Origin: a virus
Direction: 5' to 3' (one strand)
IMG/VR virus record: IMGVR_UViG_3300018719_000029
Location: 1 to 41,608 of that record
Length of the DNA stretch: 41,608 bases
Position 1 is the first letter of the stretch. Every line of letters begins with the position of its first letter. The translations under genes were made by a program, and so were the position numbers. The notes beneath the pieces were generated by a model. The model was given only the letters and a program-made list of their open reading frames with translations, was not told where the DNA came from and made no database searches. Shown here piece after piece: positions 5,112 through 18,872 of the stretch.

Positions 5112-5663
5112 TTATTTTTGAAGTTCTGATATTTTCGTTTCATATGTTTTGATATTTTTGCTAAACTGTTCAATCCTAGATTTGTATGATGCAATCATCT
5201 CTTCCTTTTTCTTGTCATCTAGGTTTTGATCATTTTTGACTTGCTCGATGCCAGTTTCAAGGTTACTTATTACTTCCTTTGCACTTTGTATAGAGTTTTG
5301 CAAGCTCTTTATTTGCTCGTTTTCATTTGAATTAGGTTCCACCACTTGTTCCTCCTTCGGTGTTGTGTTGGACTCAGGAGAAATATTGTTGTCAGACTTA
5401 TCTGCTGTAACTGTTTTAGTGTCTGCTTTATACCCAGCATCGTAGCCTAGAGCATTAAGGACAGACCGAACAGGCAAATAAGTTGAACCTTGATAAACCA
5501 AGGGGTCAGCATCAAGTTGCTTTTCCTCACCGTTTACAACGAATTTGATCTTTGCGAAGGTTGCTTGAACAAACTCTTTTGCTGGTGCCGCCATTGTCGT
5601 AGTTGTCATTCCTATTAATACACCAATAAAAAGTATAGTCACAGTGTAAAGTACTTTTTTCAT
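5112..5663 (-). CDS. Secreted stalk-domain protein with coiled coil
   Basis: A 183-residue protein. Residues 1-26 are a signal peptide (MKKVLYTVTILFIG... MAAPA). Residues 35-88 match the copper-amine-oxidase N-terminal (stalk) domain: KFVVNGEEKQLDADPLVYQGSTYLPVRSVLNALGYDA. After an Asn/Glu-rich linker, residues 115-183 are a long coiled coil. Stalk domains are abundant in exported Paenibacillus proteins and are structural, not oxidases. The gene lies between tail and lysis genes, ends at a bidirectional terminator and has AGGAGG before the ATG; it is probably a host-derived cargo gene. Surface location is predicted, function unknown. Confidence 0.75.
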   Translation of the reverse strand: MKKVLYTVTILFIGVLIGMTTTTMAAPAKEFVQATFAKIKFVVNGEEKQLDADPLVYQGSTYLPVRSVLNALGYDAGYKADTKTVTADKSDNNISPESNTTPKEEQVVEPNSNENEQIKSLQNSIQSAKEVISNLETGIEQVKNDQNLDDKKKEEMIASYKSRIEQFSKNIKTYETKISELQK

Positions 5664-8597: not shown

Positions 8598-9410
8598 TTA
8601 TGCTGGGTACTTAGCGTTAAATATGACATCAACAGTTACATTGAGGTTTGTTCCGCCCACAATCAAATCAGATGTTCCAGGCGGTAACTTACCAAAGTTC
8701 GCGTTTGTGTTTTGCAACACGTTTTGCGTTCCGATTCTTGCGGTTTTGCGTTTAAAGTCAATTGTCAAAGTCCCGCTCATAGGCGAGATATATGAAAAAA
8801 CAACGCCGCCTATCGTAAGTGAAAGAGTAGAAAAAGAACCCGTCACTTCCACGACAGGTTCGATGTTTAATTTTCCAAAGTTATTAATTTGAACCGTTCC
8901 CGGACCGTTAAAGCTGAAAGAGTAATCATCCGACCATGAGAAATCATCATCCCATGTGTAGTCCGTGTCCCAGGTAAGTAAATCGGATGTTGATTGGACC
9001 CCGTATGCAAACGGATCATAAGCCGTAAACGGCAGGGTGAACAGCCCCAGTCCTACGGCCCTGTTAATTTGGAGGTCTCCGCTATACCTGACATAATACT
9101 GCCTGTCTGGTTGATTGCGAAAAATAAGCGGCATAGTTTTCGGCTTGCCATCAGGGCCGATCAAATAGGCTGCCAAATCAGAGACTAGCTTTTGTAATTC
9201 AATCGAATTACGAGCCACCAATGCGCATTCTAGTGGCATCTGTCGCGGGCCCAAATATGCACCGAAATCATAGGCTCCATGCATATTGGGTATTGAAACA
9301 ATGTTATCCACCGTTGGAGGAGCAATAGGGCGCTGCGATTCTCGCAACACCCTCATACCAAGCTCCCGTGGAGTTTTGTCACCTAGATATAAAACTACAT
9401 CTGCACTCAC
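8598..9410 (-). CDS. Distal tail protein (Dit)
   Basis: A 270-residue protein of the Sipho_tail/Dit family, which forms the hexameric ring between tail tube and tip. Visible features: N-terminal ring domain (GDKTPRELGMRVLRESQRP... PNMHGAYDFG... LGPRQMPLECALVA), a TLPFTAYDPFAYG motif typical of Dit, and a C-terminal beta-rich galectin-like part (VVEVTGSFSTLSLTIGG). The start is GTG, overlapping the tape-measure stop by 4 bases (GTGA), with GGAGGTG 9 bases upstream. The gene order tape measure-Dit-fibre/Tal supports the call. Confidence 0.9.
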   Translation of the reverse strand: MSADVVLYLGDKTPRELGMRVLRESQRPIAPPTVDNIVSIPNMHGAYDFGAYLGPRQMPLECALVARNSIELQKLVSDLAAYLIGPDGKPKTMPLIFRNQPDRQYYVRYSGDLQINRAVGLGLFTLPFTAYDPFAYGVQSTSDLLTWDTDYTWDDDFSWSDDYSFSFNGPGTVQINNFGKLNIEPVVEVTGSFSTLSLTIGGVVFSYISPMSGTLTIDFKRKTARIGTQNVLQNTNANFGKLPPGTSDLIVGGTNLNVTVDVIFNAKYPA

Positions 9411-14421: not shown

Positions 14422-14607
14422 TCACAGTCCCATTGAATCGAGGAGACTATCTTGTTCTTGCTTGGCTTCTCGACCCGAATGTTTCAAAAGTTGGAAATAA
14501 AAAAAGATATCCATCTCGTCGATTTGGGCAAGTGTCCATCCTTGTTTCATGAGATTAAGATAAAAGTCATTTATAAAGTCCTGAGGATCATAATCCTCGT
14601 TTAGGCG
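14422..14607 (-). CDS. Tail chaperone extension (gpT-like), -1 frameshift product
   Basis: A 61-residue open frame with no start or SD of its own, entered by -1 slippage at C CCA AAC (14607-14613). It begins RLNEDYDPQDFINDFYLNL and continues through LMKQGWTLAQIDEMDIFFYFQLL. The 159-residue fusion of the two frames would be the G-T chaperone form, in which the T part binds the tape measure protein and the tube subunit. The position directly before the tape measure gene is exactly where gpT parts are found. Confidence 0.85.
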   Translation of the reverse strand, partial: RLNEDYDPQDFINDFYLNLMKQGWTLAQIDEMDIFFYFQLLKHSGREAKQEQDSLLDSMGL

Positions 14608-14613
14608 TTTGGG
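14583..14613 (-). promoter_or_regulatory. Programmed -1 frameshift site of the tail chaperone
   Basis: The slippery heptamer C CCA AAC (14607-14613) lies in the right phase two codons before the zero-frame stop. Eight bases downstream is a perfect stem GAGGAT-TATG-ATCCTC (14583-14598), the kind of structure that stimulates -1 slippage. Confidence 0.85.
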
Positions 14614-14900
14614 TCCGGCTCTGCTCCGATTGCTTCCGATCCCCCGTTAATGATCTCCTCACAGATCGCAACAACGGTAGTCAAAACCTTACGGGCGTCA
14701 ATGCCGTCATAGCACTGATCAAAGGTAAACTGATTGCCGAATGCAGAAACGATAAAATCGATAAGCGAATCTACGGTTTCCGCTTGAACGCCTTCGCTCA
14801 ATTGCTTTTGCATTTCCAACGTCTTTCTGAAAACACGTCCCGGGACAAACGACTGAACAAACTCTTTTTCTTGACCTTCGATTACCAGTTTAATTTTCAT
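14601..14900 (-). CDS. Tail assembly chaperone, zero frame (gpG-like)
   Basis: A 99-residue protein (MKIKLVIEGQEKEFVQSFVPGRVFRKTLEMQKQL...) of the small alpha-helical tail chaperone type. It lies between the tail tube and tape measure genes. It coats the tape measure before tube polymerisation and is absent from mature virions. Its end EPDPNA encodes the slippery sequence that leads to the 61-residue extension. GGAGAAAG precedes the ATG. A terminator just upstream (14921-14942) lowers read-through from the tail tube gene. Confidence 0.88.
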   Translation of the reverse strand: MKIKLVIEGQEKEFVQSFVPGRVFRKTLEMQKQLSEGVQAETVDSLIDFIVSAFGNQFTFDQCYDGIDARKVLTTVVAICEEIINGGSEAIGAEPDPNA

Positions 14901-14950: not shown

Positions 14951-15235
14951 TTAAGGTGTTGGCACCCAATCAAGCACTGCACGGTACTTAACCTTGGCCT
15001 TTGTGAACACGATGAACTCATATTTCCCTGCTGGGTTCGTTTCTTTAAACCACAGCGTTTCATCAGCATTCGGGACCAGGTTAACCCCATCGCGGGTGAT
15101 ATAAATCAAGTTGTTTTCTGCGAGGGAAATTCTCGCTCCGCTTGAATCCTTCAGTTCGAACTCAACGTGATTTACTCCGTTGTGCTCTCCCTCTTGCCCC
15201 GTTGGATTCCATGTCGCCTCAAGCGGAGGTGTTAA
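14951..15235 (-). CDS. Tail tube C-terminal Ig-like extension (-1 frameshift)
   Basis: A 94-residue frame without its own start, reached by -1 slippage at C CCA AAT (15235-15241) in the last codons of the tail tube gene. It begins LTPPLEATWNPTGQEGEHNG and ends LDWVPTP. It aligns end to end without gaps with the capsid extension at 17455-17739, about 56 of 94 residues identical. Length, beta-strand pattern and attachment by frameshift fit the phage Ig-like/Big domain decorations, which may bind carbohydrate or cell surface. The fused protein would be 283 residues. Confidence 0.8.
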   Translation of the reverse strand, partial: LTPPLEATWNPTGQEGEHNGVNHVEFELKDSSGARISLAENNLIYITRDGVNLVPNADETLWFKETNPAGKYEFIVFTKAKVKYRAVLDWVPTP

Positions 15236-15801
15236 TTTGGGAGGTATACCGTATCGAAGAATTTGCTTAAGAATTCGGTTGTAACTCCTGCATCACCGTC
15301 AGTTACAGAGTACTGCCAGCGCTCATCCGTAGAGCGCGAGATAAACGTCGCGTTAAGGGTAGGCGTTTGGTATGCCGGTGTATCTGCCTTCGTATTGGCC
15401 TCCTCGGACCCGAGAGTAAAGCGGCCCTTATACAGCCATACATACCGGAACTTGCCGTTAGAAAGGCGACGACGGTAACCAAGGGCTACATACGGGCCCA
15501 AGTCCGTGGACCTTTTATCAAGGCCTCCGTTATCATCAATCGTATGACCGAGCAAAATAGCTTGATCCTCCGTTGCAACCTCGGCCACATTGAGGGTTAC
15601 AGCCACATCACCCATCGAACTTACAGTGTCATATGCCATATCATCAGCGTATAGGGTTGCACTATTAACCGTTGGTGTGATGGTCGCCTGAATAGCCCCG
15701 GGAATACGTTTAGGGACCCCATATGTTTCGGTTACTTCGTCAGACATTACGGCATAGTACAACGAATCTAAGCCGACAGGAATTTGTTTCTTTCCAGCCA
15801 T
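15232..15801 (-). CDS. Major tail (tube) protein
   Basis: A 189-residue tube subunit of the phi13/TP901-type family: MAGKKQIPVGLDSLYYAVMSDEVTETYG near the start, then beta-rich repeats (AIQATITPTVNSATLYADDMAYDT... VALGYRRRLSNGKFRYVWLYKGRF) and DGDAGVTTEFLSKFFDTVYLPN at the end. Hexamers of it stack to make the tail tube. I chose the ATG at 15801 (GGGAG upstream) over one seven codons earlier. A -1 shift at the last codons adds the 94-residue domain. A terminator at 15826-15846 lies before it. Confidence 0.9.
   Translation of the reverse strand: MAGKKQIPVGLDSLYYAVMSDEVTETYGVPKRIPGAIQATITPTVNSATLYADDMAYDTVSSMGDVAVTLNVAEVATEDQAILLGHTIDDNGGLDKRSTDLGPYVALGYRRRLSNGKFRYVWLYKGRFTLGSEEANTKADTPAYQTPTLNATFISRSTDERWQYSVTDGDAGVTTEFLSKFFDTVYLPN
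15235..15241 (-). promoter_or_regulatory. -1 slippery heptamer of the tail tube gene
   Basis: C CCA AAT in phase, directly before the TAA stop of the zero frame. A weak CCTC-CGCTT-GAGG stem (15217-15229) begins 5 bases downstream. The same heptamer class (C CCA AAY) is used in the chaperone gene. Confidence 0.75.
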
Positions 15802-15825
15802 TTTTTCACTCTCCCATTTCAAATT

Positions 15826-15846
15826 AAAAAAGACCCGTTTGGGGTC
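15826..15846 (-). terminator. Terminator upstream of the tail tube gene
   Basis: Minus strand GACCC-CAAAC-GGGTC hairpin followed by six T. It lies between the tail terminator gene (stop at 15861) and the tail tube SD, so the tube gene probably has its own promoter or relies on read-through. Confidence 0.7.
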
Positions 15847-15860
15847 GTTTTGTTGTGTGA

Positions 15861-16229
15861 TTATTCTGTTTCCAGCAGCACCGTGCGGTACCGCAGTGAT
15901 TTATGATAGACCTGTACGTCTTTTTCGTACTGATCCGTTGCCAGCGTCCGACCCCATCCATGTTCCTTCATGGTCCGGTCCACCTCACCGGAAATAGCCG
16001 ACGTGCTTTCCTTTGACCATACGTCGATTTGAATGATCACTTCGGACGCATACGCACGATCATCAGCAAAATACCGATCGAGGTTCGTCACTTCAAAAAA
16101 TGTTATCCGTGGATATCCATGCGCCTCTGGAGCTACAAGTTGATAAATATGCTCGCCTCCAAGCAGTGAAACAAGGGTTGCATTCGACAAAAGGGCGCTT
16201 CGGACGCTCTTTTTTACATCGGTAATCAT
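15861..16229 (-). CDS. Tail terminator / DUF3168-like protein
   Basis: A 122-residue protein of the gp17/DUF3168 group, with the typical run VKKSVRSALLSNATLVSLLGG... HGYPRITFFEVTN... VIIQIDVWSKEST... YRTVLLE. It caps the growing tail tube and joins it to the head. It overlaps the gp10-like gene by 4 bases and precedes the tail tube gene, the normal order. Confidence 0.85.
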   Translation of the reverse strand: MITDVKKSVRSALLSNATLVSLLGGEHIYQLVAPEAHGYPRITFFEVTNLDRYFADDRAYASEVIIQIDVWSKESTSAISGEVDRTMKEHGWGRTLATDQYEKDVQVYHKSLRYRTVLLETE

Positions 16230-16612
16230 CCGCCTTTCAGCCCCCCTTTGAATGCATCAACCAAGACCTGAAGCGCTTGGGACCGACGGGCACGGAAAGC
16301 AGGATCTTTGTACGGCTGCGCGGCCATTTTTGAAGTCCCAAACTCTAGGAAGTGCCCCCGCCAACTCGTCTTTTTGGATTGTCGGACAAGAACATATTTC
16401 ATCCCGTCTTTTCGAGCCACCCGAGATACATAAATGTCATCGCGAATATGCGGCCCCTGGTCCGAAACTGCGACTATTGACCTTTCCTCTTGGGCAATGA
16501 GTTCTCCGGCCTCTCTTAACGCCTTACTCTCAACCTTAGCCGAGGCTTCCCCAAGACGGCGGCGGATGTCGGCAAGAAAAGCGTCTACGCCTTGCAATTC
16601 TATGCCGCTCAT
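16226..16612 (-). CDS. HK97 gp10-like head-tail/tail completion protein
   Basis: A 128-residue protein with the HK97-gp10 pattern: IELQGVDAFLADIRRRLGEASAKVESKALREAGELI, a central basic beta region, then GHFLEFGTSKMAAQPYKDPAFRA, the family signature. It belongs to the head-tail interface. It overlaps both neighbours by 4 bases. Confidence 0.9.
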   Translation of the reverse strand: MSGIELQGVDAFLADIRRRLGEASAKVESKALREAGELIAQEERSIVAVSDQGPHIRDDIYVSRVARKDGMKYVLVRQSKKTSWRGHFLEFGTSKMAAQPYKDPAFRARRSQALQVLVDAFKGGLKGG

Positions 16613-16983
16613 CCATCCTCACGCTCCATTACCATGATCCAAGTTTCAGTACCGTCACCCTGAATATCATCTAAAACGGCCTTGATGTCGTAAATTCGGT
16701 CAACTTCTTTTTCGCCGACCGTCTTTTTACCGTGAATAACACGCATATCCGCAGTGACACCGGTACGAAATCTGATTTCAAGTTGAAGCATTTTGTCCAC
16801 GTTTAAACCGTCGGCCTGAAAGGTTTCCCTCCACCTGGAGGTCAGGGGCTTACGTGCAGCCCAAAGTGTCATCCAATCAGCCCAAACGCTCTTGGAAATG
16901 CCTTCGTCGTCAGTGACAGTTTGTTTACTCTGTATCCGAATCCTGCGGTTGTACTTTTTCGGATTTGTCAGCTTCTGTGCCAT
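16609..16983 (-). CDS. Head-tail adaptor (SPP1 gp16-like head closure)
   Basis: A 124-residue protein of the phage_H_T_join family: NRRIRIQSKQTVTDDEGISKSVWADWMTLWAARKPLTSRWRE... RVIHGKKTVGEKEVDRIYDIKAV. It closes the connector after packaging and receives the tail. The ATG at 16983 is preferred to a GTG three codons earlier because of GGCGGGTG upstream. It overlaps the small gene before it by about 59 bases in another frame. Confidence 0.85.
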   Translation of the reverse strand: MAQKLTNPKKYNRRIRIQSKQTVTDDEGISKSVWADWMTLWAARKPLTSRWRETFQADGLNVDKMLQLEIRFRTGVTADMRVIHGKKTVGEKEVDRIYDIKAVLDDIQGDGTETWIMVMEREDG

Positions 16984-17170
16984 GCGGTTCACCCGCCTCT
17001 ACTTGCCCCGATTTGGCCCGGCCTCTTGACTTGATCTCTTGCCCGATCCAACCGCCATTTTGCAGTTTTTCAATACGCTCCTTGTTGGAGGATTCGAACT
17101 TACTGCCGATTTCGTAGATATCAGAGGTTTCACGGTCCCGGAATTTCTTTAAAACCGGATATTTCGCCAT
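16925..17170 (-). CDS. Small connector-region protein, unknown
   Basis: An 81-residue protein. Residues 1-45 (KYPVLKKFRDRETSDIYEIGSKFESSNKERIEKLQNGGWI) look like the short 'YP-V-K-F-D-...-Y-GD' capsid-region proteins found between capsid and connector genes; the rest is a charged, disordered tail. GGGGTGA lies 8 bases before the ATG at 17170; a GTG at 17179 that overlaps the preceding stop is an alternative. Confidence 0.65.
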   Translation of the reverse strand: MAKYPVLKKFRDRETSDIYEIGSKFESSNKERIEKLQNGGWIGQEIKSRGRAKSGQVEAGEPHGTEADKSEKVQPQDSDTE

Positions 17171-17175
17171 ACTTA

Positions 17176-17448
17176 TCACCCCGTTTTCAGTTGCAAAATG
17201 ATCGATATAAGAGAAAAATTCACTTCATCGATCTTGATACCTGGGTTGCGGTTCTCGTAGTTCAAAGCGACAAGAAGCATGACCGCCAGTTGATATTTGG
17301 CGGTCTCCTTCTTGTCTGCCGGTACTCCCGCTTCGGCCAGGTATTCTTCCGCCGAGGACATCAAAAAAGCGAGGTAATCATCATCCTCGCTGCCATCAAT
17401 CCTCAAATGCGATTTTAAAAGATCAATACTTAGCGGCATCTTATCCAC
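17176..17448 (-). CDS. Head-tail connector (gp6-like)
   Basis: A 90-residue protein of the phage_connect_1/gp6 family: SIDLLKSHLRIDGSEDDDYLAFLMSSAEEYLAEAGV then a helix and KYQLAVMLLVALNYENRNPG. Twelve or thirteen copies form a ring under the portal. It starts 7 bases after the stop of the capsid extension frame. Confidence 0.9.
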   Translation of the reverse strand: MDKMPLSIDLLKSHLRIDGSEDDDYLAFLMSSAEEYLAEAGVPADKKETAKYQLAVMLLVALNYENRNPGIKIDEVNFSLISIILQLKTG

Positions 17449-17454
17449 CCCTTT

Positions 17455-17739
17455 CTATGGGGTCGGGACCCAATCCAGCGTCGCGGCGTACAATTTACTG
17501 CTAACGGTCAGCACTTCAAATGCGTACTTACCCGCCGGGTTGTTGTCGCTGAACCAAAGTGTCTCCTGATCATCCGGCGCTAGGTCCTTACCGTCTTTCT
17601 TGATATACACCACCGCTCCAGCAGCGAGGGAAATACGGGCTCCTCCTCCATCCAACAGTTCGAACTCGGTGTGATTCACACCATTATGTTCTCCCTCTCG
17701 GCCTGTTGGTTTAAATGTTGCGGGAGAAGGAGTTACGCC
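17455..17739 (-). CDS. Capsid C-terminal Ig-like extension (-1 frameshift)
   Basis: A 94-residue frame reached by -1 slippage at A AAA AAG (17739-17745) near the end of the major capsid gene. It begins GVTPSPATFKPTGREGEHNG and ends LDWVPTP. It is homologous to the tail tube extension over its full length with no gaps. The open frame continues upstream only as out-of-phase capsid sequence and there is no SD, so independent translation is unlikely. The fused capsid protein would be 472 residues; a minority of subunits would carry the domain on the particle surface. Confidence 0.82.
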   Translation of the reverse strand, partial: GVTPSPATFKPTGREGEHNGVNHTEFELLDGGGARISLAAGAVVYIKKDGKDLAPDDQETLWFSDNNPAGKYAFEVLTVSSKLYAATLDWVPTP

Positions 17740-18872
17740 TTTTTTGCGATACGGAATGCGGATTTCAGAAGCAGTTGTTGGTCGAACCATGCAGTCAGTA
17801 CAAACAGATAGTCGCCAGATTTTACGTCTTTGTCTGTTTCATAAATCAAGGAACCGTCATAGTTCAAGCGCGCGTAACTGAAATCACCGACGATAGGATC
17901 AACGGCGGAGTCAGAGAAGACTACCGGTTTGCCTAGGACTTGCTCCGGCTGTGCATTGTACAGCGTAGTACTTCCGTTAGCCAAAGTCTCGATGATATCC
18001 ATGTAGTCGGCGTAACGCATAACAATCTTGGCTCTTTCCCGATAATCTTCGTGCAAATCGGCGATTGCGGCCTTGATTGCCTTGTACAGATCAGCGCCCG
18101 TTACCTGTTTAACAGCATTCTGAGTAGAGTAAAACGACATGTGCTCTTCTCCTGCTTTCGGGGTAGTGGCAAATGATACTTTCTTTTCCTTTGCGGCCAG
18201 ACCGGAACGAAGCGCGTTCTCCACATAGTTCACCAGATCCAGATCAGAGCCGTGAATGACAGTGTCAGAAATAGCAGCAAAAATTTTAAACTTGTTGCGT
18301 CCGAAAGTTACTTTATCCCCGGTCAGTGCAAGTTCCTTCGCTGTTTGTTCATCTGTAATGAAGTCGTCATCTGCGATGGAATAAGCGATTTTCGGCAACT
18401 CAAGCCCTTTGATATTGGACATTCCGATCACATTGCGGAGTGGATTGGTTGTGAGTGGTTCGGAAATCAACTCATTGCTAAGGTTGGTCGGCAAAAAGTT
18501 TTCTCCGCCCGTTCCGTTGCCAGTAGGAATTGCGCGCAACGCGTTCAATGCATCTTGTGAAACTGGACGCCCCTGAATTGTTGCACGGATGAATTCAGCC
18601 TTTGCAGCAATCAGTTTCTCCTTATCATTACCGGCAGCGAAAACAGGGTTTTCACGATTCAACTTTGCTTGCTGCTCCTTTTCCATCTTGTCGTGCTGCT
18701 CTTTCAACAGATCAAAGCGATCCTGCAAGTCGTTCTTCTCGCTTTTCAGATCATTAATTTCGTTCATTGGCACGGAAGGGTTCGCCAATTTGTCGACCAG
18801 TTGGTTTTCGATATTTTGCAGTTGAGCGCCTACTGTTGCCATTTTGTTTTTCAATTCAAACAGTGTATTCAT
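17733..18872 (-). CDS. Major capsid protein, HK97 fold
   Basis: A 379-residue protein. Residues 1-70 are a coiled-coil delta/scaffold domain (LQNIENQLVDKLANPSVPMNEINDLKSEKNDLQDRF). From about residue 100 the HK97 fold begins (NGTGGENFLPTNLSNELISEPLTTNPLRNVIGMSNI), with the later segments GKPVVFSDSAVDPIVGDFSYARLNYDG and VLTAWFDQQLLLKSAFRIAKKA typical of phage capsids. The delta domain should be removed by the protease encoded just upstream. GGGGGATTG precedes the ATG. A -1 shift at the end produces the longer form. Confidence 0.93.
   Translation of the reverse strand: MNTLFELKNKMATVGAQLQNIENQLVDKLANPSVPMNEINDLKSEKNDLQDRFDLLKEQHDKMEKEQQAKLNRENPVFAAGNDKEKLIAAKAEFIRATIQGRPVSQDALNALRAIPTGNGTGGENFLPTNLSNELISEPLTTNPLRNVIGMSNIKGLELPKIAYSIADDDFITDEQTAKELALTGDKVTFGRNKFKIFAAISDTVIHGSDLDLVNYVENALRSGLAAKEKKVSFATTPKAGEEHMSFYSTQNAVKQVTGADLYKAIKAAIADLHEDYRERAKIVMRYADYMDIIETLANGSTTLYNAQPEQVLGKPVVFSDSAVDPIVGDFSYARLNYDGSLIYETDKDVKSGDYLFVLTAWFDQQLLLKSAFRIAKKA
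17739..17745 (-). promoter_or_regulatory. -1 slippery heptamer of the capsid gene
   Basis: A AAA AAG in correct phase, two codons before the zero-frame TAA (17733-17735). This is among the most efficient -1 slippery sequences in bacteria. I see no strong downstream hairpin. Confidence 0.75.

Follow-up and report, generated by a model that had tools for sequence, protein, structure and literature searches.

Homologous domains encoded in the −1 frame at the ends of the capsid and tail-tube genes of a Paenibacillus-type phage

Frameshift-extended virion proteins in described phages and their probable counterparts in the window

The addition of Ig-like domains to major phage proteins by frameshifting is established (PMC5009743, PMC9022992, PMC8718954). 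In Lactobacillus phage A2, according to PMC5009743, two −1 shifts are needed, one yielding an extended form of the major head protein (gp5) and the other an extended form of the major tail protein (gp10). We computed an alignment of the two A2 extensions and found them to be homologous to each other, with a local score of 102 compared to 40 ± 7 for shuffled sequences. Both match Big_2 (2.1e-7 and 1.5e-17), and the heptamer C_CCA_AAA stands at both stops. Placing homologous domains on both head and tail is therefore not new, and A2 is a precedent for what an earlier note on this DNA had singled out as unusual, namely, the same domain on both proteins of one phage.

The stretch of DNA analyzed here (referred to as the window), 41.6 kb long, is an IMG/VR virus record of a Paenibacillus-type phage. 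Its late genes lie on the minus strand in the order terminase, portal, ClpP-type protease, HK97-fold capsid, connectors, phi13-type tail-tube protein, tail chaperone, and tape measure. The window resembles A2 in late-gene order, in the −1 relation that ends both the capsid and tail-tube genes, and in having a mutually homologous pair of extensions; the tail-tube cores of the two phages are themselves homologous (25.6% identity, 9e-7). In contrast, the A2 domains belong to Big_2, while the window domains match neither A2 domain nor any Pfam family, and the window capsid gene uses A_AAA_AAG where A2 uses C_CCA_AAA. Because the window domain has no match to an Ig-family profile, we class the window as a variant whose workings resemble those of A2 and not as a member of the A2 domain family.

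Listeria phages PSA, A118, and A500 also make frameshift products from the capsid (cps) and tail (tsh) genes of one phage (PMC5009743), but the shift is +1 in tsh and in PSA cps, and the extensions in PSA are short, reaching 47 and 24 amino acids past the stop, and do not match the window profile. With SPP1 gp17.1*, lambda gpV, and TpeX of the 936 phages, the tail tube is decorated by C-terminal domains, of which some are frameshift encoded (PMC8718954, PMC6669499); as described in those papers, however, these occur on the tail only and are FN3, Big_2, or CBM domains. Phage T7 10B and the T3 capsid extension are likewise minor −1 frameshifted capsid forms (PMC5009743, PMC3185693), although they are confined to the capsid and their extensions are unrelated to those of the window. 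What is new here is an undescribed domain family that, as far as sampled, is limited to Paenibacillaceae phages, together with A_AAA_AAG as the capsid slip site, a stand-alone gene form of the domain, and a documented transfer between capsid lineages.

Slip sites, open −1 frames, and the encoded domain

The major capsid gene (positions 17733 to 18872, minus strand) encodes an HK97-fold protein of 379 amino acids in the zero frame (PF05065, 1.4e-17; TIGR01554, 7.1e-31; phrog_10, 4.2e-56). Its 3′ end reads ...GCA AAA AAG GCG TAA, which places the slippery heptamer A_AAA_AAG (17739 to 17745, minus strand) in the zero-frame register, one sense codon ahead of the stop, and the −1 frame from this site encodes a C-terminal extension of 94 amino acids (17455 to 17739, minus strand). 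The major tail-tube gene, of the phi13 type, occupies 15232 to 15801 on the minus strand (TIGR01603, 6.7e-39; phrog_88, 8.2e-55). Although its open reading frame is open from a TTG at 15822, the most likely start codon is the ATG at 15801, which follows GGGAGAG, and the choice of start does not affect the finding. The tube gene ends ...CTC CCA AAT TAA, so that C_CCA_AAT (15235 to 15241, minus strand) lies in register immediately 5′ of the stop, followed in the −1 frame by an extension of 94 amino acids (14951 to 15235, minus strand) that is 60% identical to that of the capsid. These positions bear out the earlier claim of slip sites at the ends of the two genes, each opening 94 codons: both heptamers are in register, and both −1 frames are open.

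To gauge how often such sites arise by chance, we counted in-register X_XXY_YYZ heptamers in 15 window genes and found them at 22 of 5,269 positions. At this frequency, a heptamer would fall near a given stop by chance in approximately 1 to 2% of cases, and two together in approximately a few in 10,000. Two of the 22 lie at the ends of exactly those genes that have homologous open −1 frames. A third −1 site or candidate in the late operon, C_CCA_AAC (14607 to 14613, minus strand), lies at the end of the gene for the G-like tail assembly chaperone (14601 to 14900, minus strand; PF23857, 3.4e-25), where it would open a T-like −1 extension of 61 codons (GT-like product; 14422 to 14607, minus strand; ...MDIFFYFQLL...). 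A frameshift of the classic G/GT kind is expected at this position. Separately, a small late gene adjoining the tail genes (5112 to 5663, minus strand) encodes a domain of the copper amine oxidase N-terminal type (PF07833, 8.6e-12).

The two extensions align without gaps over their full length, with 56 of 94 residues identical, and the global score of 299 stands far above the mean for shuffled sequences (−35; standard deviation, 12), in agreement with the roughly 56 ungapped identities noticed earlier. At the nucleotide level, 172 of 285 positions are identical, and identity at third codon positions is only 39%, indicating that the tail and capsid copies are old relatives and not the result of recent copying. 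Between pairs of extensions, differences fall mostly at third positions of the −1 frame, and dN/dS is well below 1 wherever dS could be estimated; purifying selection acts on the −1 frame in every such pair.

By sequence, the domain itself resembles no described family. Across 22 members, no Pfam family of any kind gave a convincing match (on the Ig-like side, the only hits were Big_3, with an E value of 0.067, and DUF4469, with 0.15, each for a single member), and searches of PHROGs, NCBIfam, and PDB sequences returned no match to the domain. AlphaFold2 nevertheless produced confident all-beta models of 6 to 7 strands for both copies (pLDDT of 95.2 for the capsid extension and 94.5 for the tail extension). 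Foldseek comparison of these models gave only weak matches, many of which were to sandwiches of the Ig, FN3, PKD, or a related type (best E values of about 0.005 to 0.009), with none at an E value of ≤0.001 and PDB TM scores of ≤0.48. The models are best described as a beta-sandwich of an undescribed family, for which an Ig-like fold is plausible. The earlier "Ig-like" designation is thus no more than plausible, with a confidently modeled beta-sandwich in its favor but no counterpart in Ig-family profile matches or in Foldseek matches at an E value of ≤0.001.

Relatives of the domain and descent of its copies

In the collections sampled, the domain was confined to Paenibacillus genomes and to IMG/VR virus records that are unassigned. 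It occurred in 10 of 400 genomes sampled from the family and 11 of 399 sampled from the order, these two samples overlapping, and 50,697 phage records contained no relative. Searches with single sequences gave few of these loci, and the remainder came from alignment and HMM searches. In every one of the 13 distinct capsids with the extension, A_AAA_AAG lies two codons ahead of the stop and the domain is in the −1 frame. Among the 77 capsid relatives readable in the viral collection, A_AAA_AAG is present in two, which are the two extended ones, and in none of the 75 unextended capsids; in 4 of the latter, A_AAA_AAA occurs together with a short −1 frame. Judged from these sequences, the slip site is strictly coupled to the extension among relatives. 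A search for paired extensions in relatives, as the earlier note had proposed, found the domain on both proteins in five phages: the window and those of P. anaericanus, P. turicensis, Paenibacillus sp. JJ-100, and G099. In all five, C_CCA_AAT or C_CCA_AAG stands at the tube stop.

The state of the tail gene varies. In L020 (approximately 9117 to 9190), C_CCA_AAG is kept at the tube stop, but the −1 frame yields no more than an acidic stub of 22 residues, an apparent loss of the domain; in L016, C_CCA_AAC is present and the extension is absent; and in L136 (8098 to 8994), whose tube core is 72% identical to that of the window, an in-frame Big_5 Ig-like domain (9.6e-21) replaces the frameshift extension. 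The tail state is therefore labile. We also considered stop-codon readthrough in the tails of L010 and L056, where a stop had been reported inside the matches; it was ruled out, as the stop sits upstream in the −1 frame. In four further loci (L060, L071, L074, and L077), −1 frames of 135 to 143 codons are open past the tube stop with no slippery heptamer, and each probably represents a gene in its own right, starting at an ATG (MPA...YFNP).

A second group of Paenibacillus prophages (L031, 6980 to 7435; L011; L028; L054; and others) carries the domain as a stand-alone gene. This gene has a Shine-Dalgarno (SD) sequence and start (GAGGTG-aacaga-ATG), encodes an additional C-terminal region of ~50 amino acids, and sits just 5′ of a virion structural gene; by sequence, it shows that the domain is modular. 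A start codon with its own SD, as for an independent decoration gene, was found only in these homologues and at neither window copy. Since the stand-alone form has ordinary start signals that the window copies lack, the latter appear to be made by slipping and not from starts of their own. The earlier note had named a separately expressed gene preceded by an SD, if found in other phages, as evidence against its frameshift reading. Such a gene does exist, but its different context, its own ATG, and its extra C-terminal region leave frameshifting in the window unrefuted.

In trees of the extensions, the capsid and tail copies from a given phage do not group together. Forcing the two window copies to be sisters was rejected (p-AU = 1.2e-8), which, along with the 39% third-position identity, rules out gene conversion or recent duplication inside the window phage. 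When a single origin of the tail copies was compared with a double origin, one single tail clade gave a p-AU of 0.26. In the capsid-core tree, the remaining 12 extended capsids form one clade, while the window falls inside an unextended clade (SH-aLRT of 98), with 81% identity to L057. The position of the window core in an unextended lineage indicates one clear horizontal transfer of slip site plus domain. Moreover, window DNA resembles L057 and L058 up to the codons for SAFRIAK and thereafter resembles the extended phages, including the next gene; this switch of identity partner at the junction indicates either that slip site, domain, and downstream DNA were recombined in at the end of the capsid gene or that the capsid core was swapped upstream of it.

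Probable production and possible role of the long forms

At the level of sequence, the coding design can be regarded as shown: slip sites, open −1 frames, homology, selection, coupling of slip site to extension, and no independent start for the tail copy. Programmed −1 frameshifting at both genes, as read by the earlier note, is well supported by the conservation of slip sites in relatives, selection on the −1 frame, and the startless tail copy. We infer that a fraction of ribosomes would slip −1 at A_AAA_AAG in the capsid gene and C_CCA_AAT in the tube gene, pass the stop, and add homologous beta-sandwich domains of ~90 residues to the C termini of a minority among the capsid and tube subunits. 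RNAalifold and single folds revealed no convincing conserved 3′ stimulatory RNA, RNAalifold giving one distant stem only. A candidate TTCNCC/GGNGAR stem located 10 nucleotides downstream pairs in 6 of 9 capsids (P = 0.02, post hoc, by scripted count) and is only suggestive as a stimulatory element.

Other routes to the extensions fit these data poorly. They might be separate small proteins, produced by reinitiation or internal starts, that bind the virion as free decoration. The stand-alone homologue, with its SD, ATG, and extra C-terminal region, offers a model for this, and the −1 frame of the capsid gene does contain a single in-frame ATG (17790), 17 codons 5′ of the domain. That ATG has no SD and lies within the capsid gene, however, and the tail −1 frame contains no in-frame ATG, GTG, or TTG from its upstream stop to domain residue 42. 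Reinitiation would also not require the heptamer that tracks the extension in relatives, and we hold this route to be very improbable. Transcriptional slippage, for which the A6 run within the capsid heptamer would be the substrate, is slighter still in likelihood as a source of the long capsid form: the run is short, the longest run in the tail C_CCA_AAT is three, and there is exact coupling to tandem-slip geometry. Frameshift errors of sequencing or assembly, and in-frame fusions that have decayed, have nothing in their favor beyond the split frames themselves, and they are a negligible prospect given that the identical −1 relation recurs at this place, under purifying selection, among 13 capsids and 5 tails of independent genomes.

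The main rival concerns not the frameshifts, which it accepts as real, but the role of the domain, which would be structural (capsid or tail stabilization or assembly control) instead of host binding. The title of a paper cited in PMC5009743 (ref. 145) reports that the frameshift-extended head protein of A2 is an essential capsid component, and the Ig domain of the lambda tail contributes an intra-ring contact (PMC8718954). However, one fold on two unrelated assemblies, an icosahedral shell and a helical tube, better fits a shared outside ligand than a common structural contact, and the tail domain is readily lost, as in L020 and L016, or exchanged for Big_5, as in L136. We therefore regard a structural role as unlikely, though a serious competitor. 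The sequence itself yielded no evidence for receptor binding by the domain; analogy with the tail extensions (TpeX) of lactococcal 936 phages, which bind host cells specifically (PMC6669499), lends support to a role in envelope binding. By that analogy, we infer a function in surface decoration or adsorption, in which the long forms would enter virions with the domain on the outside. Low-affinity, many-copy decoration that helps particles bind to or linger on the Paenibacillus envelope may be the most likely role.

The slip site and domain would travel as a cassette, which the window phage joined to the core of a lineage otherwise without it, and the capsid and tail copies would have diverged long ago and then evolved separately. 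We consider the account as a whole, from −1 slipping that adds homologous domains to a minority of head and tube subunits through decoration to cassette transfer, to be very probable. We propose more tentatively, at somewhat less than an even chance, that a slippery site plus an undescribed beta-sandwich forms a mobile decoration cassette in Paenibacillus phages, found at the same junction on different capsid lineages, on tail tubes, or as a stand-alone gene, with head and tail of one virion presenting the same ligand-binding surface.

Together with A2, the window would make two independent cases, built on unrelated domains, in which frameshifting puts one type of domain on both head and tail; this suggests selection for display over the whole particle. 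Its relatives supply natural contrasts (extended, stub, in-frame Big_5, stand-alone gene, and capsid-lineage transfer) that make the old question of the role of ancillary domains testable in culturable type strains.
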